A DNA stretch of 64,000 nucleotides, from NCBI GenBank assembly GCA_020851035.1, contig JADZDM010000012.1, positions 62,001 to 126,000 on the forward strand, read 5' to 3'. Origin of the DNA: Gemmatimonadaceae bacterium (GTDB taxonomy: Bacteria; Gemmatimonadota; Gemmatimonadetes; Gemmatimonadales; Gemmatimonadaceae). The translations under genes were made by a program, and so were the position numbers. The notes under the pieces are model-generated. The model was not told where the DNA came from, ran no database searches, and saw nothing but the letters and a program-made list of their open reading frames with translations. Below, in pieces: positions 52,276 to 63,957 of this stretch. Position 1 is the first letter of the stretch; each line of letters starts with the position of its first letter.

Positions 52276-52668
52276 TCAGCCGGCGACGTACTGCGCGAAC
52301 AGGCGCGCCAGGACGCGGTCGGGATCGCCATCGCAGAGGCCTTCGTGCACCGGCGACGCCTGCAGCACGTCGGAACGTGGCGCGGTGAGCCAGTGGAACC
52401 GCTCCGAGGTCGGCGCCAGGGCGATGGGGCCGGCCTGCGGGTCGCCCGCGGCCACCCGTTCCATCGTGCGCAGGTAGCGCGCCAGCATGCCGACGTCCAC
52501 GCTCGGCACCCGATCGCGCAGCGTGCTCTCGTTCGTGAGCGCGAGCAGCCCGAGGAAGCCCGCCTGGCGCGCGTGGAGCAGCACGCCGACGGGGATGAAC
52601 GCACCCAGGTGCACGTGCGGGACGGCGCGCAGCACCGCGAAGTCGTACGGCATCGCGGTGTCGCTCAT
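52276..52668 (-). CDS. DUF3037 protein, partner of a HipA-like kinase
   Basis: A 130-residue soluble protein resembling the DUF3037 family, with YDFAVLRAVPHVHLGAFIPVGVL near the start and a helical second half. No catalytic motif is recognisable. Its ATG overlaps the stop of the HipA-like gene (ATGA), the usual arrangement for this family, in which DUF3037 genes follow a HipA-type kinase gene. The function of the pair is not known to me; it may be a substrate, adaptor or neutraliser of the kinase. Confidence 0.78.
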   Translation of the reverse strand: MSDTAMPYDFAVLRAVPHVHLGAFIPVGVLLHARQAGFLGLLALTNESTLRDRVPSVDVGMLARYLRTMERVAAGDPQAGPIALAPTSERFHWLTAPRSDVLQASPVHEGLCDGDPDRVLARLFAQYVAG

Positions 52669-53504
52669 CGCCGCGCCGTGTAGGGCTGCGTCGGCGCCGT
52701 GCGCAGCTGCTCGCGGGCCTCGATCGCTGCCGCGGTGAAGAGCCGCGATGCATCGCGCCGGGTGCGCAGGTAGGCCGCGTAGCGGTCGCGCGCGACGGCC
52801 GCATCCGGCGAGTCGTCCCCGGACACGGGATCCAGCAGCAGCCGGTCCGGCACCGTGGCCAGGATGGCCCGCAGCACGTCATCGTCGAGGGCCGCGACGG
52901 CCGCGGCGTCGGCGGCTTCCAGGTCGCCGGTGCGCAGCAGCAGCACGTGCTGACGGATGAGCGGGAATGGCGTGGTCATGCGCGCCGCGGTCACGCTCGG
53001 CCAGTCGTAGTGCATGTAGAGCGCCGCGCCGTGGTCGATCAGCCATGGCTTGCGCTGCCACACCAGCAGGTTCGGGTTCCGCGCGGTGCGGTCCGGGTTG
53101 GTGATGAACGCATCCAGCCACACCAGCGTGGACGCGAACGCGCTGTCCACCACGTCGTGCGCCGCGACCGGGTCGAAGTTGAAGCTCCCATCGAGGTACC
53201 GCAGGCCGATGTTGATCCCGCGGCTGGCCTTCAGCAGCTCCTGGATCTCGGGATCGGGTTCGCTCTGCCCGAACCGGTCGGGCAGCTCGATGGTCGCGAG
53301 CTCCGGCACGGGCAGGCCGAGGGCCGTCGCGATGCCATGCGCGACCATCTCCGCCACCAACACCTTCGCCCCCTGGCCGGCGCCGCGGAACTTCGCGACG
53401 AAGAGCCCCCCGCCATCGGTGTCGACGATGGCCGGCAGCGAGCCACCCTCGCGCAGCGGCTGGACATAGCGGCTGGCGGTGAGGTGCACCGGCGCCGTCG
53501 GCAC
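52665..53504 (-). CDS. HipA-like kinase-fold protein
   Basis: A 279-residue protein with a protein-kinase/PI4-kinase-like fold related to the C-terminal part of the HipA toxin. FVAKFRG near residue 36 supplies a likely ATP-binding lysine. WLDAFITNPDRTARNPNLL near 125 resembles the HipA catalytic loop, and WLIDHGAALYM near 150 supplies a DFG-like metal-binding aspartate. The N-terminal HipA domain and any HipB-like DNA-binding antitoxin are missing. The GTG start at 53504 is a choice; it lies 13 bases after the GlcNAc-kinase stop on the same strand. Its role in this amino-sugar locus is unclear. Confidence 0.75.
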   Translation of the reverse strand: MPTAPVHLTASRYVQPLREGGSLPAIVDTDGGGLFVAKFRGAGQGAKVLVAEMVAHGIATALGLPVPELATIELPDRFGQSEPDPEIQELLKASRGINIGLRYLDGSFNFDPVAAHDVVDSAFASTLVWLDAFITNPDRTARNPNLLVWQRKPWLIDHGAALYMHYDWPSVTAARMTTPFPLIRQHVLLLRTGDLEAADAAAVAALDDDVLRAILATVPDRLLLDPVSGDDSPDAAVARDRYAAYLRTRRDASRLFTAAAIEAREQLRTAPTQPYTARR

Positions 53505-53517
53505 GTGGGGCGCGATG

Positions 53518-54468
53518 TTACTGCGCCTCGACGGTGAGCCCGATCGTCCGCAACGCCAGGTGCGTCGCGCCGCGGGCGGCATCCACGGCCTGGTGGCGCA
53601 CCATGGCGCCGGGCACGAGTGTCTTGAGCCTGTGCTCGAGTCGCTTGCGCATCGGCCGGCCGCGCGCGAGGAGCCCGCCGTGCAGCGCCACCGGGATCGC
53701 CGCGCGCTCGTCGACGAAGAGTGATCGTGCCAGCGCCCGCACGTGCAGCGCCAGCTCCTCCACTGCCATCGTCACGATCGTGTTGGCCCGCAGGTCGCCC
53801 ACCTCCGCCGCCGAGAGCACGGCCGGCGCCAGCGTCGCCATGTCTGCCGGTGTGGCCGACGCGGCCCACGCGATGATCGCCGGCACATCGTCGAGCTCCA
53901 GCGCGGTCAGCACCGCACCCGTGAGCGCCGTCTCCGGCTCGCGACCATCGTGTGCCGCGGCGATGACCTGCAGTGCTTTCCGGCCGAGCCACGCACCGCT
54001 CCCCTCGTCGCCGATCACGTGGCCCCACCCGCCGCACCGCTGCATCGTGCCCGCCGGGCTGCGCCCCCAGCCGATGCTGCCGGTGCCGGCGATCAGCAGG
54101 ATGCCGGGCCCCTCGGCGAAGGCGTCGTACATCGCGGCCTCGGCATCGGAGAGCACCACCACCGTGTCGGCGACCTCCAGGCGCTCCAGCTCCTGCGTGA
54201 GGGCGATCTTCTGCTGCTCGCGCCCCACGCCGGCCACCCCGACCACCAGCGCCCGCGGCAGCAGGTGCCCCATCTCGGCATCGATCACTGCGTTGCGCAC
54301 GAGGGTGCCGATCAGCTCCGCGGCGTCGGCCTCGGCGCCCGGGCGCACGGCACTGCCCGCACCGGATGACTTGTGGAGGACCTGCGCGCGTTCATCGCTG
54401 ACGTAGACCCGCGTGCTGCTGCCGCCGCCGTCGACGCCGACGACGACCAGTTCAGTGGGTGTGCTCAT
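53518..54468 (-). CDS. N-acetylglucosamine kinase-like BadF/BadG ATPase
   Basis: A 316-residue actin-fold kinase of the BadF/BadG/BcrA group, which includes N-acetylglucosamine kinases. VVVGVDGGGSSTRVYVSD near residue 9 is the phosphate-1 motif. ILLIAGTGSIGWGR near residue 122 is the adenosine/phosphate-2 region, and GGWGHVIGDEGSGAWLGRKA near 145 is characteristic of GlcNAc kinases. It likely makes GlcNAc-6-phosphate in the cytoplasm. Its start overlaps the stop of the sodium symporter gene (ATGA), so uptake and phosphorylation are coupled. Confidence 0.88.
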   Translation of the reverse strand: MSTPTELVVVGVDGGGSSTRVYVSDERAQVLHKSSGAGSAVRPGAEADAAELIGTLVRNAVIDAEMGHLLPRALVVGVAGVGREQQKIALTQELERLEVADTVVVLSDAEAAMYDAFAEGPGILLIAGTGSIGWGRSPAGTMQRCGGWGHVIGDEGSGAWLGRKALQVIAAAHDGREPETALTGAVLTALELDDVPAIIAWAASATPADMATLAPAVLSAAEVGDLRANTIVTMAVEELALHVRALARSLFVDERAAIPVALHGGLLARGRPMRKRLEHRLKTLVPGAMVRHQAVDAARGATHLALRTIGLTVEAQ

Positions 54469-56009
54469 GGATTCGTCTCGGTCTCGGTCGCCACACGGAG
54501 CGCCGGCGCCACCGGCGCCGGGTGTGTGTACGACGACAGGATGCCTGCAGTGAGCGTGATCCCGGTGCCGATCAGCACGTACCAGGGCCACGCGATGGTC
54601 GCGACGCCGCCCAGGGTGGGCGCGAGCGAGGGGACCCGGGAGATCAGCAGCTTCGCGAACACGATCACCGCCATGCAGGCGATGCCGACGCTCATGCCGG
54701 TGATGGCATCCCGCTGGTTCGCACGCTTCCAGAGCAGCGCGAGGGAGAAGCCGCCCACCAGCCCGCCGTGGGTGAAGCTCGCGATGCTCAGCGCCACCAC
54801 CACCACCGGCGCGCCCTGCTTGGGATAGAGCAGGGCACCGAAGGTGAGCAGCACCCCCCACGCGAGGGCGAAGAGCTTGCCGGTGCGCAGCGTGCCCGCA
54901 TCCTCGGCCTTCCGGCCGGTGAGCGGGAGGTAGATGTCGTGTGTCGTGGTCGCGGCGAGCGCGTTGATCGTGGCACTGTGCGTGCTCATCGTGGCCGCCA
55001 CGATCGCGGCGAGGATCAGCCCGAGCAGGCCGGAGGGCATCCGCTCGAGGATGAAGAGCGGGAAGATCTGGTCGCTGGCCTCGAACGCCTTGCCGCCGTA
55101 GTACACGTACAGCCCGAGCCCGATGCACAGGAACAGCGTGAACTGGGCGAACACCACGAACCCGCTGGCGATGAGGGCGCGCTGCGCATCCTTGAGCCCG
55201 CGGCTGGCCAGCAGGCGCTGCACGATGAGCTGGTCCGCGCCGTGCGACCCCATGGCCAGGAACGCCCCGCCGATCAGGCCGGCGAACACCGTGTGCGGGC
55301 GGTCGAAGCCGGTGTACCAGTCGATCGCCTGCAGCTTGCCCGAGGCGCCGGCGGTGGTGATGATCGTGCTCCAGCCGCCGTCGACGCTGCGGCCGAGAAG
55401 CACCAGCGCGCAGATCCCGCCGAAGATGTAGATGCCGGCCTGGATCATCTCGGTGTACACCACCGCGCGCATGCCACCCTTGTAGGTGTAGACCACCGTC
55501 AGCAGCCCGAGGACGAGGATCGCTGCCGGCATCACGTACTCCTTCGGCAGCGTGTCCCCGAGGATCAGCGCCACCGGGATCGCGGTCGCGAAGATGCGCA
55601 CGCTGTCGGCGACGGCCCGCGTCGCCATGAACACCACACTCGTGAACCGGCGCGTCTCGGGGCCGAACCGCTTCTCGAACAGCGCGTAGGCGGTCACCAG
55701 CTCGCCGGCGAAGTACTTCGGCAGCAGTACGTAGGCCACCACGAAGCGCCCGATGATGTAGCCGGCCACGACCTGCAGGAACCCGAGGTTCCCGATGTAG
55801 CTCAGGCCCGGGATGCTGATGAACGTGAGCGCGCTCGTCTCGCTCGCCACCACGCTGAAGAGGATCCCCCACCAGGGGATGGCGTGGCTGGCCACGAAGT
55901 AGTCCTTGGCGTCCTTCTGCTTGCCACCGAGCCAGAGCCCGAGGCCCGTCGTCCCGACGAGGTAGGCCACGAGCACCAGCCCGTCGACCAGGGCGAATCC
56001 ACCTGACAT
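54465..56009 (-). CDS. Sodium:solute symporter, SSS family
   Basis: A 514-residue SSS-family transporter with about 13 helices. Signature stretches are ASETSALTFISIPGLSYIGN near residue 50 and MGSHGADQLIVQRLLASRGL near residue 254. TM1 begins LVDGLVLVAYLVGTTGLGLW. It takes up an organic solute with Na+. The neighbours (GlcNAc kinase, NagB fusion, GH3 hexosaminidase) point to an amino sugar such as GlcNAc or a related product, but SSS substrates cannot be read from sequence alone. It starts 15 bases downstream of the nagB fusion gene on the same strand. Confidence 0.88.
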   Translation of the reverse strand: MSGGFALVDGLVLVAYLVGTTGLGLWLGGKQKDAKDYFVASHAIPWWGILFSVVASETSALTFISIPGLSYIGNLGFLQVVAGYIIGRFVVAYVLLPKYFAGELVTAYALFEKRFGPETRRFTSVVFMATRAVADSVRIFATAIPVALILGDTLPKEYVMPAAILVLGLLTVVYTYKGGMRAVVYTEMIQAGIYIFGGICALVLLGRSVDGGWSTIITTAGASGKLQAIDWYTGFDRPHTVFAGLIGGAFLAMGSHGADQLIVQRLLASRGLKDAQRALIASGFVVFAQFTLFLCIGLGLYVYYGGKAFEASDQIFPLFILERMPSGLLGLILAAIVAATMSTHSATINALAATTTHDIYLPLTGRKAEDAGTLRTGKLFALAWGVLLTFGALLYPKQGAPVVVVALSIASFTHGGLVGGFSLALLWKRANQRDAITGMSVGIACMAVIVFAKLLISRVPSLAPTLGGVATIAWPWYVLIGTGITLTAGILSSYTHPAPVAPALRVATETETNP

Positions 56010-56024
56010 CAGGCCACGCCGGTG

Positions 56025-57887
56025 TTATTCGACAACGTACGCCTCCATGGCGAAGTATTCGGCCAGGCCGAGTCGGTTGAGCTGTGCCGCGGTGTCGGTG
56101 TTGCGGTCCTGCACCCGCTGCCAGAACTCACGGTCGTCCTGGCCGGGGAATGGCGCCGAGTCCTTCTGCGACTGGTGCTTGAAGATCGCCTGGATCTTGA
56201 GGCGCAGTTCCTCCTGGCTCAGCGGCACGAGCACCGTCGCCTCGGTCACCGGCCACTCCTGCCACGCCCCGCGATACAGCCATACCTCGGGACGGGGGTG
56301 CCCAAGTGCCACGTACTCCGCCAGCGCCGCATCGATCGCCTCCTTGCACATCCGGTGCGTGCCGTGCGGGTCGCTCAGGTCGCCCGCCACGAACACCACC
56401 TCCGGGTGGAACTCCTCCAGGAGGTCGCGCACGATGCGCACGTCAGCGGCACCGATGGGATCCTTGCGCACCTTCCCCGTCTGGTAGAAGGGCAGGTCGA
56501 GGAAGCGGGCGTTGTCCCGCGTCAGGCCCACCACCTCCAGCCCACCCACGGCCTCGGTCTCGCGGATGATCCGCTTGATGTCCTGGACCGCCGCCACGTC
56601 CACGTCGCCCGGGCGCTTCGACGCCAGCGCCCCGAACAGGCTGATCGCGAACTCGCGCACCTCCGGGCCCCGCAGCGCCGCCGGCGTGGTGGCCTCCGTG
56701 GTCCGCGCACCCATCCGCACGAGGAAGTCGAGGTGGCGACGCACGTCGTGGTCGAACACCGCGATGTTCCCACTCGTCATGTACGCCACCACCAGCGAGT
56801 TCTCGTTCTCCACCATCTTCCGCAGGATGCCGCCCATCGAGATCACGTCGTCGTCCGGGTGCGGCGAGAAGCAGATCACGCGCTTGTGCCGGTGCAGCTT
56901 GCTCCGTCCGCGGATCCGCGCGCCGAGCGAGTTGAACACGAAGCCGTTGATCCCGCCGGGCGTGCCATATGCCGCCACCAGTGACGACAGCCGGTGCTCC
57001 GCATAGTCCGACTGCGTGAGCTTGAGGATCGCGCGGCCCACCGTCGTCGACAGCCAGACCACCGCCCGCACCGCGAGCGACTCGGTCCACGTGACTTCGT
57101 CCACCAGCCACGGCGTGGCGATCCGCGTCAGGTCCGCCGCCGCCGCCCCGTCGAGGTAGAACGTGGTGTTCGGGTGGTCCTGCAGGAACGTCGCGGCCAC
57201 CTCGAGGTCGATCGGCCCCTCCACCGCGCGGCGCACGATCGACGCCTTGTGCTCCCCGGTTGCCAGGATCGCCACCTCCCGCGCGTCGAGGATCGTGGCC
57301 ACGCCCATCGTGATCGCCTCGCGCGGCACGTGCGGCTCGCCGAAGAAGTCGGCCGACGCGTCCTTCCGCGTCACCGCGTCGAGGGTCACCAGCCGGGTGC
57401 GGCTGTCGCGGCCGGACCCGGGCTCGTTGAAGCCGATGTGGCCGGTCTTGCCGATGCCGAGCAGCTGGAAGTCGATGCCACCGGCCGCCACGATCGCGGC
57501 CTCGTACGCGGCACACGCCGCGGCCACGTCGTCGCGCGCCAGCGTGCCGGGCGGGAGGTGCACCTGCGAGGCCGGGATGTCGATGTGCGAGAAGAAATTC
57601 TCCCACATGAACCGGTGGTACGCATGGATCGAGTCCGGCGCCATCGGCCAGTACTCGTCCAGGTTGAACGTCTCGACGTGCGCGAAACTGAGCCCGGCGG
57701 TGCGATGGCGGCGGATCAGCTCCCGGTAGACGCCGATCGGCGTCGAGCCGGTGGCCAGCCCGAGCACCGTGCGGCGTCCGGCCGCCCCGTTCGCGCGCAT
57801 GAGCGCCTCGATGCGGTCGGCCACGCGAACGGAGAGCGCGTCGGGATCGTCGCTGATGACGGTCGGGATCTTCTCTGGGTTCTGCAT
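56025..57887 (-). CDS. nagB: Glucosamine-6-phosphate deaminase fused to a PIG-L deacetylase-like domain
   Basis: A 620-residue two-domain protein. Residues 1-285 are a NagB deaminase/isomerase that turns glucosamine-6-phosphate into fructose-6-phosphate and ammonia: GLATGSTPIGVYREL, the catalytic aspartate in FNLDEYWPM, and GIGKTGHIGFNEPGS with the active-site histidine. Residues about 335-600 are a PIG-L/LmbE-type zinc deacetylase domain with CFSPHPDDDVISMGG (the metal His-Asp-Asp) and GDLSDPHGTHRMC (third ligand). Both halves keep their catalytic residues. Similar NagB-PIG-L fusions are known in Bacteroidetes. The second domain may deacetylate GlcNAc-6-phosphate or a related compound. It lies in the GlcNAc uptake and kinase operon. 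Confidence 0.92.
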   Translation of the reverse strand: MQNPEKIPTVISDDPDALSVRVADRIEALMRANGAAGRRTVLGLATGSTPIGVYRELIRRHRTAGLSFAHVETFNLDEYWPMAPDSIHAYHRFMWENFFSHIDIPASQVHLPPGTLARDDVAAACAAYEAAIVAAGGIDFQLLGIGKTGHIGFNEPGSGRDSRTRLVTLDAVTRKDASADFFGEPHVPREAITMGVATILDAREVAILATGEHKASIVRRAVEGPIDLEVAATFLQDHPNTTFYLDGAAAADLTRIATPWLVDEVTWTESLAVRAVVWLSTTVGRAILKLTQSDYAEHRLSSLVAAYGTPGGINGFVFNSLGARIRGRSKLHRHKRVICFSPHPDDDVISMGGILRKMVENENSLVVAYMTSGNIAVFDHDVRRHLDFLVRMGARTTEATTPAALRGPEVREFAISLFGALASKRPGDVDVAAVQDIKRIIRETEAVGGLEVVGLTRDNARFLDLPFYQTGKVRKDPIGAADVRIVRDLLEEFHPEVVFVAGDLSDPHGTHRMCKEAIDAALAEYVALGHPRPEVWLYRGAWQEWPVTEATVLVPLSQEELRLKIQAIFKHQSQKDSAPFPGQDDREFWQRVQDRNTDTAAQLNRLGLAEYFAMEAYVVE

Positions 57888-57999: not shown

Positions 58000-58356
58000 T
58001 TACGCCGAGAACGACGACCCGCAACCGCAGCCACCGGTCGCATTCGGGTTCTTGAACGTGAAGCCCGACCCCTGCATCGACGTGGTGTAGTCGATCATCA
58101 CGCCGTTCAGATACTGCAGCGAGAAGGGGTCCACGAACACCTGGAACCCATCCTGCGCCAGCAGCGTGTCATCCTCGGCCGGCTTGTCCTCGATCAGCAG
58201 GGAGTACTTGAACCCGCTGCACCCGCCGGGCTGCACAGCGACACGCAGGCCGCCGACGGTGGGATCCACCGACTCGGCTTCGAGGAACTTCTTCACCTCG
58301 ACCGTCGCGGCGGACGAAATGGTGAGCAGCACATCTGGCGTCTGCATCGTGCTCAT
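58000..58356 (-). CDS. erpA: A-type iron-sulfur carrier protein (ErpA/IscA/HesB family)
   Basis: A 118-residue Fe-S cluster carrier that delivers clusters to client proteins. It has the three family cysteines: one in QPGGCSGFKYSL (near residue 45) and the C-terminal pair in NATGGCGCGSSF. The TVGGLRVAVQPGGCSG block and the terminal CGCG place it with ErpA/HesB proteins. The start is supported by a strong GGAGGA ribosome site six bases upstream. It is monocistronic, bounded by a terminator, and metabolically unrelated to the flanking amino-sugar genes. It could supply Fe-S enzymes such as those of alternative complex III. Confidence 0.94.
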   Translation of the reverse strand: MSTMQTPDVLLTISSAATVEVKKFLEAESVDPTVGGLRVAVQPGGCSGFKYSLLIEDKPAEDDTLLAQDGFQVFVDPFSLQYLNGVMIDYTTSMQGSGFTFKNPNATGGCGCGSSFSA

Positions 58357-58488: not shown

Positions 58489-59703
58489 TCAGCGCGTCCC
58501 CGGCAGGGCGCGCGCGGCGGCGCCGTCCACCGCGCCCGACACGGCGTCGGCGAGCGCCACCCGCACGCCACCGATCCGGGTGTTCTGGCGCGACGGGTTG
58601 ACGCGGTTGGTGAGCAGGATCACGAAGAGGTCGCGCGCCGGGTCGATCCAGATCGACGTGCCCGTGAACCCGGTGTGGCCGAAGGCGCGGGCGGAGAGGC
58701 GATGGCCCGCCGAATTCGACCCGGTCGGTGTCTCCCAGCCCAGCGCACGCCGGCTCAGGCTCGTGTCCTGGACGCGGGTGAACTGCGCAACCGTCCGCGC
58801 CGTGGCCAGACGGACGCCGTCGAGCGTCCCGCGGTTCAGCCACATCCGGGCCACCCGCGCCAGGTCCTGCCCGGTCGCGAAGAGGCCGGCGTGCCCGCTC
58901 ACGCCGTCGAAGCGCGAGGCGTTCTCGTCGTGCACCTCACCGCGGAGCTGTCGCTGCCGCCACGGGTCGTACTCGGTCGGGGCGATCCGCGCGAGCGCCG
59001 ACGCCGGCGGCAGGAACCGGGTGTCGGCCAGGCGGAGCGGCCGGGCGACCAGCGCCTGGAACGCGCTGTCCAGCCGCATCCCGGTCAGTCGCTCGGCCAC
59101 CAGGCCGAGCAGCATGAAGTTCATGTCGCTGTAGAGATAGCGCGTGCCCGGCGGCACCTGGGGGCCTACCAGCAGCAGCTGCGCCCTAGCATCGGCCTGG
59201 TCGGTGGCCTCCTTGTAGAACGGGCGCCACGCCGCCAGCCCGCTGCTGTGCGTGAGCAGGTGCCGGATGGTGATCGTGCGCGCGCCGTCGCCACGCCACT
59301 CGGGGAGATAGCGCACCACCGGCGCGTCCAGCGCCACGCGGCCGCGGTCCACCAGCGTGAGCATCAGTGACGTCGTGGCGACGATCTTCGTGAGCGACGC
59401 GAGGTCGTAGATCGTGGTGGCGTCGGGACGGGTGGAGTCGGTCACGTCCAGTCGGCCCACGCCGAGCGACGCGATGATGCCCGCGCGTGTGCCGACGATC
59501 GCCACGCCGCCGGGGAAGGCGCTGTCCGACATCGCGCGCCCGAGCACGGCACGCAGCGAGTCCTGCACGCGTGCGCTGACCGAGGGCGCCGGTCCGGCGG
59601 GCGGCGTGGGTGGCGACAGCTCCGCGCCTTGCGCCTGTAGCGCGGTCCCCGTCAGCAGCCGGCATGCCAGCGCCAGCACCAGAGTGCGTTGCGGCAGGCT
59701 CAT
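58489..59703 (-). CDS. Secreted serine hydrolase, class C beta-lactamase fold
   Basis: A 404-residue protein with a signal peptide (1-25, LVLALACRLLTGTALQAQ). The penicillin-binding/beta-lactamase-fold motifs are in order: SLTK (about residue 104, the nucleophile and its lysine), YSD (about 191) and HTG (about 344, GHTGFTG). This group includes esterases, D-aminopeptidases and peptidases, and resistance activity is not implied. It overlaps the GH3 gene upstream (ATGA). In Bacteroidetes a GH3 and such a serine hydrolase are often fused in one protein, so these two may work together on cell-wall fragments. Confidence 0.87.
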   Translation of the reverse strand: MSLPQRTLVLALACRLLTGTALQAQGAELSPPTPPAGPAPSVSARVQDSLRAVLGRAMSDSAFPGGVAIVGTRAGIIASLGVGRLDVTDSTRPDATTIYDLASLTKIVATTSLMLTLVDRGRVALDAPVVRYLPEWRGDGARTITIRHLLTHSSGLAAWRPFYKEATDQADARAQLLLVGPQVPPGTRYLYSDMNFMLLGLVAERLTGMRLDSAFQALVARPLRLADTRFLPPASALARIAPTEYDPWRQRQLRGEVHDENASRFDGVSGHAGLFATGQDLARVARMWLNRGTLDGVRLATARTVAQFTRVQDTSLSRRALGWETPTGSNSAGHRLSARAFGHTGFTGTSIWIDPARDLFVILLTNRVNPSRQNTRIGGVRVALADAVSGAVDGAAARALPGTR

Positions 59704-61544
59704 CGGGTGCCTCCGGTGGCGGTGAGTCCATCATTGCGCGAGAAGATGCCCGGCAACGTGACCGGTGACCTGCCGGCGAAGTTCCCGCGGAACAGCGCTC
59801 GCGCCGCCGCCCGCTCCGGTCCCTCGCCCACGCTGAACGTCGCCATGTACGCCTCGATGTCGGGGAACTGGCCGATCACGTACGGATTGCCTGCTGCCAC
59901 CACGATCGGCTGGAGCTGCGACGCGATCCGTCGCACCCACGCCGCGAACGGTTCCACGATCGCGACGCGACCGGCCCCCTCCACCCGCCGCACCACGGTC
60001 ACGATCACCAGCCGGCCGCGGCGCGACCGGCGGGTGATGGAGTCGAGCGCCTCGCGCGTGGTCTGCGGGCCCACCCGGTACACCGTCACGCGCCCGCGCG
60101 AGCGGAACTCGGTGGTGAAGGCGTTCCCGCCGCCGATCTCGGTCTCGGGAGCGTAGACCACCAGCTGCATCGGGCCGCGTGCGGGGTCCAGCGGGAGCTG
60201 GTGCGCCTGGTCGCGCAGCACCGTCACCGCGCGCGTGGCGATGTCGCTGGCGACGGCCCGGTGACTGGTGATGCCCACCACCGCGCGGAGCGAGTCCAGC
60301 GAGACCTGGCGGCCGGCATGCAGCCCCACCCGCGCCTTCATCTCGAGGTTCTTGCGCGCCGCGGCATCGAGCAGTGCGGCGAACGCCGTGTCCGCTGCAG
60401 CGCGGGCCGTGAGTGCGTCGAGCACCGGCGCCACGTCGGCGGGCTTGAGCAGCACCTCGGCGCCCGCCTGCACAGACCGGATCGCGATCTCCTCCTGCGA
60501 GAACATCCGAGCCACGCCCTGCATGGTGAGCGCGTCGGTGATGGTGAGGCCGCGGAACTGCAGCGAGTCGCGCAGCTCGTCAGTGAGCACGCGTCGCTGG
60601 AGCGTGGCGGGCAGGGCATCCCCCATCCACGTCGGGTTGCTGATGTGCGCCGACATCACCGCCGCCGCACCCGCGTCGATGGCGGCGCGGAAGGGCCGCA
60701 GCTCCACGCTGTCGAGGTGGGCGTGCGTGAGGTGCACCACGGGCAGCGCGTTGTGCGAGTCGGTCTCCGTGTCACCATGACCGGGGAAGTGCTTCACCGT
60801 GGCCAGCGCGCCACCGTCCTGCACGCCGCGGGTGAACGCCGCGGCCAGTGCGGCCACGCTCGCCGGGTCCTCGCCGAACGACCGGACGTTGATGACGGGG
60901 TTGGCGGCATTGTTGTTCACGTCAGCCACGGGGGCGTACGCGAGGTGGATGCCGATGGCCCGCGACTCGCGCCCGGTGACGAGGCCCGCCTGGTAGGCCA
61001 GGGCGGTGTCGCCGGTCGCCCCGATGGCCATGGCGGTTGGCAGCACGGTGGCGCCACCGGCACGGATCATCGACGGGATGAAGAGCCCGCCCTCCAGCCG
61101 GCCGATCGACGGCTCGACGTCGCACCCCACCAGCAGCGGCACCCGGGCCATCGCCTGGAGCGTGTTCAGCTTGGCCGCGATCTCGATCGGAGAGCCGACG
61201 GACATGAGGATGCCGCCGATCCCGTCCTGACGCACCCATCTGGCGGTCGTGGCGAAGGCGCTGTCGGTCTCACTCTCGTAGTCCCCCACCAGCCACACGT
61301 GGATGAGCTGGGCAGCCCGTTCGCGAGGTGACAGCGTCCGCAGGGTGCTGTCCACCCACCGCCGTGCTGCCGGGCTCAGCGCCACGCGCGGGTCGCGGGA
61401 TTCCGGCGGCAGCGTGAACTCGCGGGATACGGCTGGGTACGCCAACTGCCGCAGCGAGCCCGGCAATGACGCCGAGTGGCTGCGGCCCTGCAGCGGCAGA
61501 ACAGCGAGCGCGGCCGTGAGGCCGGCCAGGGCGAACACGCGCAT
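59700..61544 (-). CDS. Secreted GH3 beta-N-acetylhexosaminidase, NagZ-like
   Basis: A 614-residue family 3 glycoside hydrolase with an N-terminal signal (about 1-27). The catalytic TIM barrel (about 65-390) contains ATVKHFPGHGDTETDSHN (about 257), whose Asp-His pair is the general acid/base dyad of NagZ-type enzymes. The nucleophile region is GLTITDALTMQG (about 340). A GH3 C-terminal domain (about 425-600) follows, which short NagZ proteins lack. It probably removes terminal beta-GlcNAc from muropeptides or chitin fragments outside the cytoplasm. The start is at ATG 61544. Confidence 0.9.
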   Translation of the reverse strand: MRVFALAGLTAALAVLPLQGRSHSASLPGSLRQLAYPAVSREFTLPPESRDPRVALSPAARRWVDSTLRTLSPRERAAQLIHVWLVGDYESETDSAFATTARWVRQDGIGGILMSVGSPIEIAAKLNTLQAMARVPLLVGCDVEPSIGRLEGGLFIPSMIRAGGATVLPTAMAIGATGDTALAYQAGLVTGRESRAIGIHLAYAPVADVNNNAANPVINVRSFGEDPASVAALAAAFTRGVQDGGALATVKHFPGHGDTETDSHNALPVVHLTHAHLDSVELRPFRAAIDAGAAAVMSAHISNPTWMGDALPATLQRRVLTDELRDSLQFRGLTITDALTMQGVARMFSQEEIAIRSVQAGAEVLLKPADVAPVLDALTARAAADTAFAALLDAAARKNLEMKARVGLHAGRQVSLDSLRAVVGITSHRAVASDIATRAVTVLRDQAHQLPLDPARGPMQLVVYAPETEIGGGNAFTTEFRSRGRVTVYRVGPQTTREALDSITRRSRRGRLVIVTVVRRVEGAGRVAIVEPFAAWVRRIASQLQPIVVAAGNPYVIGQFPDIEAYMATFSVGEGPERAAARALFRGNFAGRSPVTLPGIFSRNDGLTATGGTR

Positions 61545-61702
61545 GGAGACGGGTGCGGAAAAGGGGGGACCGGCCGGCGCGGCACTGCGGTCCGCGCCGG
61601 CGAGGACCGACAAGCCTAGCGAATGCAGCGCCGCGGGCGCACCCGTCCGTCGGCGGAGGGCGAAGTGGAGTTCACTCCGGGCGGGCGCGGCTGACGCTGC
61701 TG

Positions 61703-61732
61703 TTGCCGCGACTGTTCGCGGCTCCTTATCTT
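61703..61732 (+). promoter_or_regulatory. Promoter candidate for the leader and the phosphatidyltransferase gene
   Basis: TTGCCG (61703-61708) and TATCTT (61727-61732) are separated by 18 bases. Transcription would start near 61739, giving a leader of about 134 bases before the start codon at 61873. Confidence 0.45.
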
Positions 61733-61770
61733 GTTCTCCTGCATTGCTTTTTCGTGATGATGGCCCGCAC

Positions 61771-61807
61771 CCCTCACGGCGGAGAAGCCGTGGGGCTTTC
61801 TTTTTCT
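61771..61807 (+). terminator. Terminator hairpin inside the leader
   Basis: A 9-base stem (61772-61780 with 61787-61795, one G-T wobble) with a GGAGAA loop is followed by CTTTCTTTTTCT. No gene is transcribed into it from upstream on this strand, so it would end a short RNA of about 65 bases starting near 61739, or act as an attenuator for the downstream gene. Confidence 0.65.
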
Positions 61808-61872
61808 CAGTCCCGTCCGTTGGGGTATTCATCCCCTGCGGCGACCCCTCACTCCACCCGACCACCACGGCC

Positions 61873-62595
61873 ATGCTCCTTGCGCTCTGGAATGCGATCA
61901 AGGCTGGCTACCTGCGTGTCATCGCGCCGGTGGCGGACCTGCTGGTGCGCCACCGCGTGAGTCCCAACCTGATCACGACGGTCGGCACGGTCTGCACGAT
62001 GGTCGCCGGCGGCATCTTCGCCAGCGGGCACATACGGACGGCGGGGTGGTTCATGGGACTGACCGCCCTGTTCGACGTGCTCGACGGCACCGTGGCCCGT
62101 CGCACCGGCCGCAGCACGGTGTTCGGGGCGTTCTACGACTCGACCCTCGATCGCGTGGCCGACGGCTTCGTGCTCGGCGGGCTGGCCGTGTTCTACGGCA
62201 TGAACGCCACCCATCGCAGCCCGGTGATGCTCGCGATCACGATTGCAGGGCTGATCGGCACCTTCCTGACCTCGTACACCCGCGCCCGCGCCGAGTCGCT
62301 CGGTCTGGATGCGAAGGTCGGCATCATGCAGCGCCCCGAGCGTGTGGCGCTGCTGTCGGCCCCGCAGGCGTTCTTCGGGCTGGCACTGGATGGCTGGGTG
62401 CTCGCCGGCATCGTCACCCTGCTCTCGGTGACGGCCTGGATCACGGCGGTGCAGCGCATCCTGTTCGTCTACAATGTCACCCGCGCGGCGGAGTTGGTCG
62501 GCGACGAATCGCCCTCGCCGCGTCCTGCTGGTGCCACGCCGTCCGCGTCGTCGGCGACGATGCCCGACGATGTCCCCGCTCCCTACGCGCCCTGA
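61873..62595 (+). CDS. CDP-alcohol phosphatidyltransferase (likely phosphatidylinositol-phosphate synthase type)
   Basis: A 240-residue membrane enzyme with about six helices that transfers a phosphatidyl group from CDP-diacylglycerol to an alcohol. The signature DG-x2-AR-x8-G-x3-D-x3-D is present as DVLDGTVARRTG (about residue 71) and GAFYDSTLDRVAD. The next gene makes inositol-1-phosphate, so this is plausibly a phosphatidylinositol-phosphate synthase, as in actinobacteria and Bacteroides. Glycerol-3-phosphate (PgsA-like) cannot be excluded from sequence alone. The C-terminal 25 residues are low-complexity. The start is ATG 61873. Confidence 0.85.
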   Translation: MLLALWNAIKAGYLRVIAPVADLLVRHRVSPNLITTVGTVCTMVAGGIFASGHIRTAGWFMGLTALFDVLDGTVARRTGRSTVFGAFYDSTLDRVADGFVLGGLAVFYGMNATHRSPVMLAITIAGLIGTFLTSYTRARAESLGLDAKVGIMQRPERVALLSAPQAFFGLALDGWVLAGIVTLLSVTAWITAVQRILFVYNVTRAAELVGDESPSPRPAGATPSASSATMPDDVPAPYAP

Positions 62596-62628
62596 CCGGC
62601 GTCGCACATTCCCCGGAGATTTCCCCAC

Positions 62629-63957
62629 GTGACCGGTTCGCTCACTCGTCCGACGTCCATCAAGCCCGCCACCGGCAAGCTCGGCATCCTGACCCCCGGG
62701 CTGGGCGCAGTTGCCACCACGTTCATGGCCGGCGTCGAGAGCATCCGGCGTGGCCACACGAGCCCCATCGGCTCCCTGACGCAGATGGCGACCATCCGGC
62801 TCGGCAAGCGCACCGAGCACCGGTCGCCGCTGATCAAGGACTTCGTCCCGCTCGCCGGCCTCGGTGACATCGTCTTCGGAGCCTGGGACCCCATCTCGGA
62901 CGACGCCTACACCGCCGCGAAGAAGGCGGGCGTGCTGACGTCCGAGCACCTCGAGCCCCTCAAGGACTTCCTCACGGCCATCAAGCCGATGAGTGCCGCC
63001 TTCGAGTCGCGCTTCGTCACGCGCCTCCTCGGCGTCGACAACGTGAAGACCGGCCCGAGCTACCGTGACATCGCCGAGCAGCTGCGCGCCGACATGCGGA
63101 AGTTCAAGGCCGACAACGGCTGTGACCGTCTCGTGATCGTCTGGTGTGCGAGCACCGAGGCGTTCATCCAGCCCGGCCCGCAGCACGCCACCGTCGCGTC
63201 GTTCGAGCAGGCGATGGACAGCAACGACCCGGCCATCGCGCCGTCGATGCTCTACGCCTACGCCGCCCTGATGGAGAACGTCCCGTTCTGCAACGGCGCC
63301 CCGAACCTCACCGTCGACCTGCCGTGCATGCTGCAGCTCGCCAACGAGCGCGGGATCCCCGTCAGCGGCAAGGACTTCAAGACCGGCCAGACCTGGATGA
63401 AGACCGTCATCGCGCCGGGCCTCAAGGCGCGCATGCTCGGGCTCGCCGGCTGGTACTCGACGAACATCCTCGGCAACCGCGATGGCGAGGTGCTGGACGA
63501 CCCCGCGTCGTTCAAGACCAAGGAGGAGTCCAAGCTCTCCGTGCTGCACAACATCCTGCAGCCCGAGGTGTATCCGGAGCTCTACAAGGACTTCTCGCAT
63601 GTCGTCCGCATCAACTACTATCCGCCGCGCGGCGACAACAAGGAAGGCTGGGACAACATCGACATCGTCGGGTGGATGGGGTACCCGATGCAGATCAAGG
63701 TGAACTTCCTCTGCCGCGACTCCATCCTGGCGGCACCAATCGTCCTCGACCTCGCGCTGTTCAGTGACTTCGCGCACCGTGCCGGCATGAAGGGGATCCA
63801 GGAATGGCTGTCGTTCTACTACAAGAGCCCGATGGTCGCCCCCGGCCTGCAGCCGGAGCACGACCTGTTCATCCAGCAGACGAAGCTGAAGAACACGCTG
63901 CGCTTCCTGATGGGCGAGGAGCAGATCACGCACCTCGGCCTCGAGTACTACAGCTGA
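62629..63957 (+). CDS. ino1: Inositol-3-phosphate synthase (myo-inositol-1-phosphate synthase)
   Basis: A 442-residue NAD+-dependent isomerase that converts glucose-6-phosphate to inositol-3-phosphate. The Rossmann start is GKLGILTPGLGAVATTFM (about residues 16-33). SGKDFKTGQTWMKTVIAPGL near 245 and WYSTNILGNRDGEVL near 271 are the catalytic-domain stretches, and the closing HLGLEYYS is typical of MIPS. The length is close to that of Bacteroidetes enzymes, longer than the actinobacterial form and shorter than the yeast form. The GTG start at 62629 has a GGAG eight bases upstream. It lies 33 bases after the phosphatidyltransferase gene and is probably co-transcribed with it. Confidence 0.95.
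   Translation: MTGSLTRPTSIKPATGKLGILTPGLGAVATTFMAGVESIRRGHTSPIGSLTQMATIRLGKRTEHRSPLIKDFVPLAGLGDIVFGAWDPISDDAYTAAKKAGVLTSEHLEPLKDFLTAIKPMSAAFESRFVTRLLGVDNVKTGPSYRDIAEQLRADMRKFKADNGCDRLVIVWCASTEAFIQPGPQHATVASFEQAMDSNDPAIAPSMLYAYAALMENVPFCNGAPNLTVDLPCMLQLANERGIPVSGKDFKTGQTWMKTVIAPGLKARMLGLAGWYSTNILGNRDGEVLDDPASFKTKEESKLSVLHNILQPEVYPELYKDFSHVVRINYYPPRGDNKEGWDNIDIVGWMGYPMQIKVNFLCRDSILAAPIVLDLALFSDFAHRAGMKGIQEWLSFYYKSPMVAPGLQPEHDLFIQQTKLKNTLRFLMGEEQITHLGLEYYS

Follow-up and report, generated by a model that had tools for sequence, protein, structure and literature searches.

The window, a stretch of 64,000 nucleotides from a Gemmatimonadaceae bacterium (GenBank assembly GCA_020851035.1, contig JADZDM010000012.1, positions 62,001 to 126,000), carries on its minus strand an open reading frame of 620 amino acids (56025-57887) in which a NagB-like glucosamine-6-phosphate deaminase half and a PIG-L-like deacetylase half are joined in one chain. 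Directly downstream, after a spacing of 15 bases, lies a gene for a sodium:solute symporter (SSF; 54465-56009, minus strand), followed by a BadF-type kinase (PF01869) resembling N-acetylmuramic acid (MurNAc)/N-acetylglucosamine (GlcNAc) kinases. The kinase frame (53518-54468, minus strand) ends at 53518, and its first methionine, at 54468, produces a 4-base overlap with the end of the symporter. The sequence-only reading had placed symporter, kinase and NagB in one minus-strand group, and the tight tandem across 53518-57887 bears this out. The fusion is a full-length member of the NCBIfam family NF002557 (PRK02122), named ‘glucosamine-6-phosphate deaminase-like protein’, matching it over residues 3-618 with 861.7 bits against a cut-off of 384. 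Its architecture, identical to that of the family, is thus already catalogued and not new. The family name covers the NagB half only, and no reaction was found assigned to the PIG-L half of fusions of this type.

The NagB-like domain spans residues 10-254 (57126-57860, minus strand). Pfam Glucosamine_iso matches residues 14-225 with 82.0 bits, and the NagB equivalog model TIGR00502 is passed narrowly, with 239.6 bits against a cut-off of 236.9 (242 bits in a second run); four further glucosamine-6-phosphate deaminase models match below their own cut-offs. In the first 21 Foldseek matches to solved NagB chains, template modelling (TM) scores by target range from 0.84 to 0.96, and the solved enzymes of B. 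subtilis (2bkv) and human (1ne7) share both fold and catalytic residues with this half; the fusion differs from them in carrying a second, PIG-L domain. Asp77, His150, Glu155 and Lys214, which we take to be the counterparts of the catalytic Asp72, His143, Glu148 and Lys208 of E. coli NagB, are all present and are invariant in 81 of 81 aligned sequences of the phylum, that of the window included. Thr148, presumably at the position of E. coli Asp141, was considered as possible evidence that the NagB half is dead; this reading was rejected, since the solved deaminase 2bkv has Asn there in the printed alignment and the change seems to be tolerated.

A conserved, mainly helical linker (residues 255-335; 56883-57125, minus strand) leads to the PIG-L/LmbE-like domain with its conserved C-terminal extension (residues 336-620; 56028-56882, minus strand). 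PF02585 matches residues 339-521 with 60.2 bits against a gathering score of 28.2, which places this half in the PIG-L/LmbE superfamily. The intact HPDD motif and third-ligand histidine noticed in the sequence-only reading are indeed present, at residues 343-346 (56850-56861, minus strand) and as His511 of the HGTH stretch at residues 508-511 (56355-56366, minus strand). His343, Asp345, Asp346, His508 and His511 are invariant in the same 81 sequences. The His-Asp-His ligand set and general-base Asp of PIG-L enzymes are found as His343, Asp346, His511 and Asp345, the putative metal-ligand roles following by analogy from rPIG-L, whose ligands are given as His49, Asp52 and His157 in a section of PubMed Central (PMC) article PMC4101496. 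The structure model of the fusion has a mean predicted local distance difference test score (pLDDT) of 78.9 and a predicted TM score of 0.51, with residues 540-599 and 609-620 below a pLDDT of 50; it is uncertain between domains, so the relative placing of the halves and any channelling are beyond judgement. Foldseek matches to PIG-L enzymes, with root-mean-square deviations of 11.9-13.0, are little informative.

The kinase, searched as 53533-54462, a few residues short at either end, has as its best solved match 8zo3, an N-acetylmuramic acid/N-acetylglucosamine kinase (118.9 bits), followed by a probable GlcNAc kinase (106 bits); against the NagK_SO3507 model it scores 112.6 bits, below the cut-off of 370. 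The best solved match of the symporter is 5nv9, a ‘putative sodium:solute symporter’. The 80 nearest fusion loci, nearly all from Gemmatimonadota, Gemmatimonadetes or a group within, were compared by tblastn, and homologues of the symporter and the kinase occur anywhere in the stretch in 56 and 47 of them, respectively. Counted from tblastn positions, both lie just downstream on the same strand in 38 of the 57 loci whose downstream flank is 3.5 kb or longer; the linkage of fusion, symporter and kinase is therefore not due to chance. Some loci scanned without the operon have varied neighbours.

These partners bear on the order of reactions. In one alternative, the PIG-L half would deacetylate free GlcNAc before phosphorylation, the kinase would act on glucosamine, and the NagB half would take the returning glucosamine-6-phosphate. 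The nearest solved relatives of the PIG-L half, diacetylchitobiose deacetylases of Pyrococcus and Thermococcus, are members of the same superfamily with a role in chitin breakdown, and the Thermococcus enzyme acts on unphosphorylated GlcNAc2, as described in part of PMC4101496. These are separate proteins, however, and the phmmer matches to them are weak and only 57-60 residues long. Among solved proteins, the kinase most resembles a MurNAc/GlcNAc kinase, with a probable GlcNAc kinase next, MurQ is known to deliver GlcNAc already in phosphorylated form, and fusion to a NagB half would suggest a shared phosphorylated substrate; a free-GlcNAc route thus appears improbable.

NagA (N-acetylglucosamine-6-phosphate deacetylase), whose reaction is the one proposed below for the fusion, belongs to the amidohydrolase family, whereas neither the NagA profile (TIGR00221) nor any amidohydrolase profile matches the fusion at E <= 0.001; the fusion could work like NagA, yet it is no member of the NagA family. 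That the window lacks NagA, as the sequence-only reading had stated, holds and extends to the whole assembly (4.97 Mb, 34 contigs, 95.7% complete). With all 46 candidates for TIGR00221 scored, six short matches resulted there, the best of which, at 30.7 bits, is below the cut-off of 225.65. A seven-row NagA alignment gave a best E = 0.0019 over 64 columns of a short C-terminal stretch (27 of 27 scored). A genome search for nagA, which the same reading had proposed as a check, hence supports it. Neither of the two models, for which every candidate was scored, brought up a NagA that is hidden or divergent, and that possibility was rejected; at 95.7% completeness, this absence is not absolute.

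The gap extends across the phylum. No NagA match was found by two models (E <= 1e-15 and E <= 1e-8) in 194 of 200 genomes, and the same six carry a match by both. In the 1e-15 search, the B. subtilis and Bacteroides controls gave no match, and no genome among those listed had more than 9 candidates scored; the alignment for the 1e-8 search includes the 2vhl NagA fragment, and there the corresponding maximum among the genomes listed was 11. The fusion scores above its cut-off in 125 of the 200 genomes, none of which has a NagA match. The six NagA-match genomes form one divergent family, have no fusion and no MurQ, and do not exceed the TIGR00221 cut-off. NagA-like proteins of this family (stretches L104, 1411-2649, minus strand, and L105, 169-2535, plus strand) show, by eye, a Tat-like leader in two of three cases and adjoining frames resembling Gfo/Idh oxidoreductases. 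They may for that reason be no ordinary NagA and may act outside the cytoplasm.

AnmK and MurQ together yield GlcNAc-6-phosphate. Contig C17 of the assembly encodes, all within about 7 kb, MurQ (342.7 bits, cut-off 302), AnmK (410.6 bits, cut-off 387), a NagZ-like glycoside hydrolase family 3 (GH3) protein (168.7 bits, below the cut-off of 207) and an Amidase_3 protein, and a NamZ protein is encoded on contig C25. With AnmK, a NagZ-like GH3 and MurQ present, GlcNAc-6-phosphate should arise in the cell. MurQ occurs in all 125 fusion genomes versus 62 of 75 fusion-free ones (Fisher p = 1.4e-6, kinship uncorrected), and a cluster with NamZ (exo-N-acetylmuramidase) as its one scanned member is found at 17 of the 80 related loci. 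When the 69 fusion-free genomes outside the divergent family were scored with the NF002557 model, 2 gave a full-strength NagB match (about 256 bits), 4 a middling one (E 1e-28 to 1e-33) and 12 a weaker one, while 51 gave none. Strong catabolic deaminases therefore nearly always travel with a PIG-L domain.

The lack of a NagA homologue, the steps that make GlcNAc-6-phosphate, the conserved operon with a MurNAc/GlcNAc-type kinase and the intact residues of both halves point to a bifunctional enzyme. In the simplest and likeliest account, to which we give even odds, the PIG-L half would deacetylate GlcNAc-6-phosphate for the NagB half, the fusion thereby replacing the missing NagA. In this scheme, the symporter would import an amino sugar (GlcNAc and/or MurNAc), which the kinase would phosphorylate, and MurQ, encoded elsewhere in the genome, would convert MurNAc-6-phosphate into GlcNAc-6-phosphate. 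The PIG-L half would then remove the acetyl group with a single metal ion held by His343, Asp346 and His511 and with Asp345 as base, and the NagB half would turn glucosamine-6-phosphate into fructose-6-phosphate and ammonia, possibly after a hand-over between the halves. The two reactions from GlcNAc-6-phosphate to fructose-6-phosphate are otherwise carried out by two unrelated proteins. To our knowledge, no other PIG-L enzyme acts on a hexosamine phosphate, and the fusion would be the first.

Several observations weigh against such a replacement. MurQ without a NagA match by the same models also occurs in 62 fusion-free genomes, so the gap is not confined to fusion genomes, which weakens the argument from it. 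Three further PIG-L matches above the Pfam cut-off exist in the genome. At 18 of the 57 loci with enough flank, neither symporter nor kinase lies downstream. The mutual exclusion of fusion and NagA may reflect one evolutionary event; as all six NagA genomes belong to one family, it is not used as independent statistical proof. Openly licensed PMC papers yielded no PIG-L enzyme that acts on GlcNAc-6-phosphate. Lastly, two tandem annotated nagA genes lie directly upstream of the fusion of Parabacteroides distasonis (L129, 5374-7719); there the PIG-L half is kept beside NagA, and its substrate may differ from that of NagA. The earlier proposal that the fusion performs both deacetylation and deamination consequently stands in part: the missing NagA, the operon and the residues speak for it, the Parabacteroides pair and MurQ without NagA in fusion-free genomes speak against it, and the substrate of the PIG-L half is as yet a prediction from sequence.

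The wider gap also raises the idea that a hidden deacetylase, whether an unrelated hydrolase or the product of a gene in the few per cent missing from the assembly, performs the NagA step, with the fusion acting as a deaminase with an accessory domain. The incomplete assembly, the 62 fusion-free genomes just mentioned and further amidohydrolase-like and PIG-L matches in the genome would agree with it. Most of the phylum sample is without a NagA match, however, and the PIG-L metal site, invariant in two phyla, is not decaying, which leaves this explanation a slim chance.

The second phylum is the Bacteroidota. A tblastn search of plasmid records returned 112 records, 10 of which cover most of the fusion, all with Bacteroidota names; the evidence below comes from nine of these ten (match H5 left out), seven of them annotated, and plasmid annotation is incomplete. 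These proteins share the domain order of the window fusion at about 42-50% identity. HPDD and His511 are kept in 9 of 9 and His508 in 8 of 9, the Hymenobacter tibetensis copy (L128, 7941-9884) having Asn for His508 in a strain that carries a further fusion on a different plasmid. Two Hymenobacter loci contain GH18, SusC, SusD and MFS genes, and another contains GH20, ROK and MFS genes; the Fibrella locus has two GH20 genes, a beta-N-acetylhexosaminidase, an MFS gene and a sialate esterase. The Persicobacter locus has a ROK gene only, and that of Bacteroides has none of these genes. GH18 or GH20 together with an MFS transporter is thus found at four of the seven annotated loci, with no nagA annotated in those stretches. 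In the unannotated Phocaeicola and Prevotella records (L125 and L126), a separate NagB frame immediately precedes the fusion.

Both Asp77 and His150 are kept in 5 of 5 Cytophagales fusions. All four Bacteroidales fusions (L123, 7902-9893; L129, 7902-9887; L125, 5784-7772; L126, 5759-7768) have Tyr for Asp77 and Asn for His150 with their PIG-L residues intact. The annotation of two of them as glucosamine-6-phosphate deaminase is doubtful, given the loss of deaminase residues and the retention of the PIG-L site. The two halves are thus separable, and a PIG-L metal site kept in every sequence examined fits a deacetylase as the core function of the fusion. From this, a broader and more tentative proposal can be made: the PIG-L domain may serve as NagA in most Gemmatimonadota and in Cytophagales, with one chain leading from GlcNAc-6-phosphate to fructose-6-phosphate, and in Bacteroidales, which have a separate nagB, the deaminase half would be dead, the PIG-L half kept alone, and the annotated deaminases really deacetylases.

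The same losses can be read differently. The PIG-L half might act on a different conjugate of GlcNAc, be it linked to inositol, linked to a thiol or part of cell-wall metabolism, the NagB half merely sharing its chain. Known PIG-L/LmbE enzymes act largely on conjugates (in part from a section of PMC4101496), all four Bacteroidales fusions lack Asp77 and His150 while retaining the PIG-L site, and one has nagA next door. In addition, genes for a CDP-alcohol phosphatidyltransferase and a myo-inositol-1-phosphate synthase (61861-63957, plus strand) adjoin the fusion locus, which suggests inositol lipid synthesis in these bacteria; clusters of these kinds, judged from one scanned representative each, occur at 16 and 28 of the 80 related loci, respectively. 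The inositol genes are on the opposite strand, however, and none is annotated near the seven annotated Bacteroidota loci, whose annotation is incomplete; in the phylum and in Cytophagales, moreover, the NagB half seems to matter, its deaminase residues being kept in 81 of 81 and 5 of 5 sequences, respectively. Action on another conjugate is accordingly judged unlikely, with a modest chance of being right.

Within the openly licensed PMC literature, nothing was found on the PIG-L half of the fusion, nor on its functional reading, the phylum-wide NagA gap or the dead deaminase half in Bacteroidales. Tables in PMC10434189 and PMC3764172 name BT0258-59 and PGN_0606, and tables in PMC9511218 and PMC9820247 contain nagA and PIG-L proteins. 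The portion of PMC5583593 that lists replacements in amino-sugar pathways has none for NagA, and a passage of PMC10295696 guesses the reverse, that a snail NagA might stand in for PIG-L. If deacetylation of GlcNAc-6-phosphate by the fusion proves true, it would fill a gap in how an entire phylum recycles amino sugars and peptidoglycan, and the PIG-L superfamily would gain a further class of substrate. Automated ‘glucosamine-6-phosphate deaminase’ annotations would then also need correcting in Bacteroides and its kin, whose fusions examined here have lost the deaminase residues.

Elsewhere in the genome, a second NagB-like gene (C21:352191-352955, corresponding to L119, 6168-6956, plus strand) scores 105.8 and 107.7 bits against a cut-off of 236.9 and shares 4 bases with the end of a frame resembling, by eye, a Gfo/Idh oxidoreductase; on both grounds, we consider it unlikely to be the main deaminase. 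Contig C25 encodes a stand-alone PIG-L protein (L130, 1153-1890, minus strand; PF02585, 100.5 bits) resembling the bacillithiol deacetylase BshB1 by eye. Within the window, a protein with a HipA-like kinase domain (52665-53582, minus strand; PF20613, 50.2 bits) shares, as called, 65 bases with the end of the kinase gene and has no tblastn match above 60 bits in the 80 related loci. Upstream of the fusion, on the minus strand, are an IscA-like gene (58000-58356), its family being named after the protein of a relative, and a serine hydrolase of the beta-lactamase/PBP4B type (58489-59703; PF00144, 215.8 bits; PBP4B model, 155.2 bits, below the cut-off of 385). A NagZ-like GH3 gene with an uncertain true start follows (59700-61901, minus strand; PF00933, 237.1 bits; PRK05337, 144.2 bits, below the cut-off of 207). 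Homologues of the serine hydrolase and the GH3 protein occur anywhere in the stretch in 38 and 11 of the 80 related loci, and upstream of the fusion in 30 and 10 of the 46 loci with at least 5 kb of flank.

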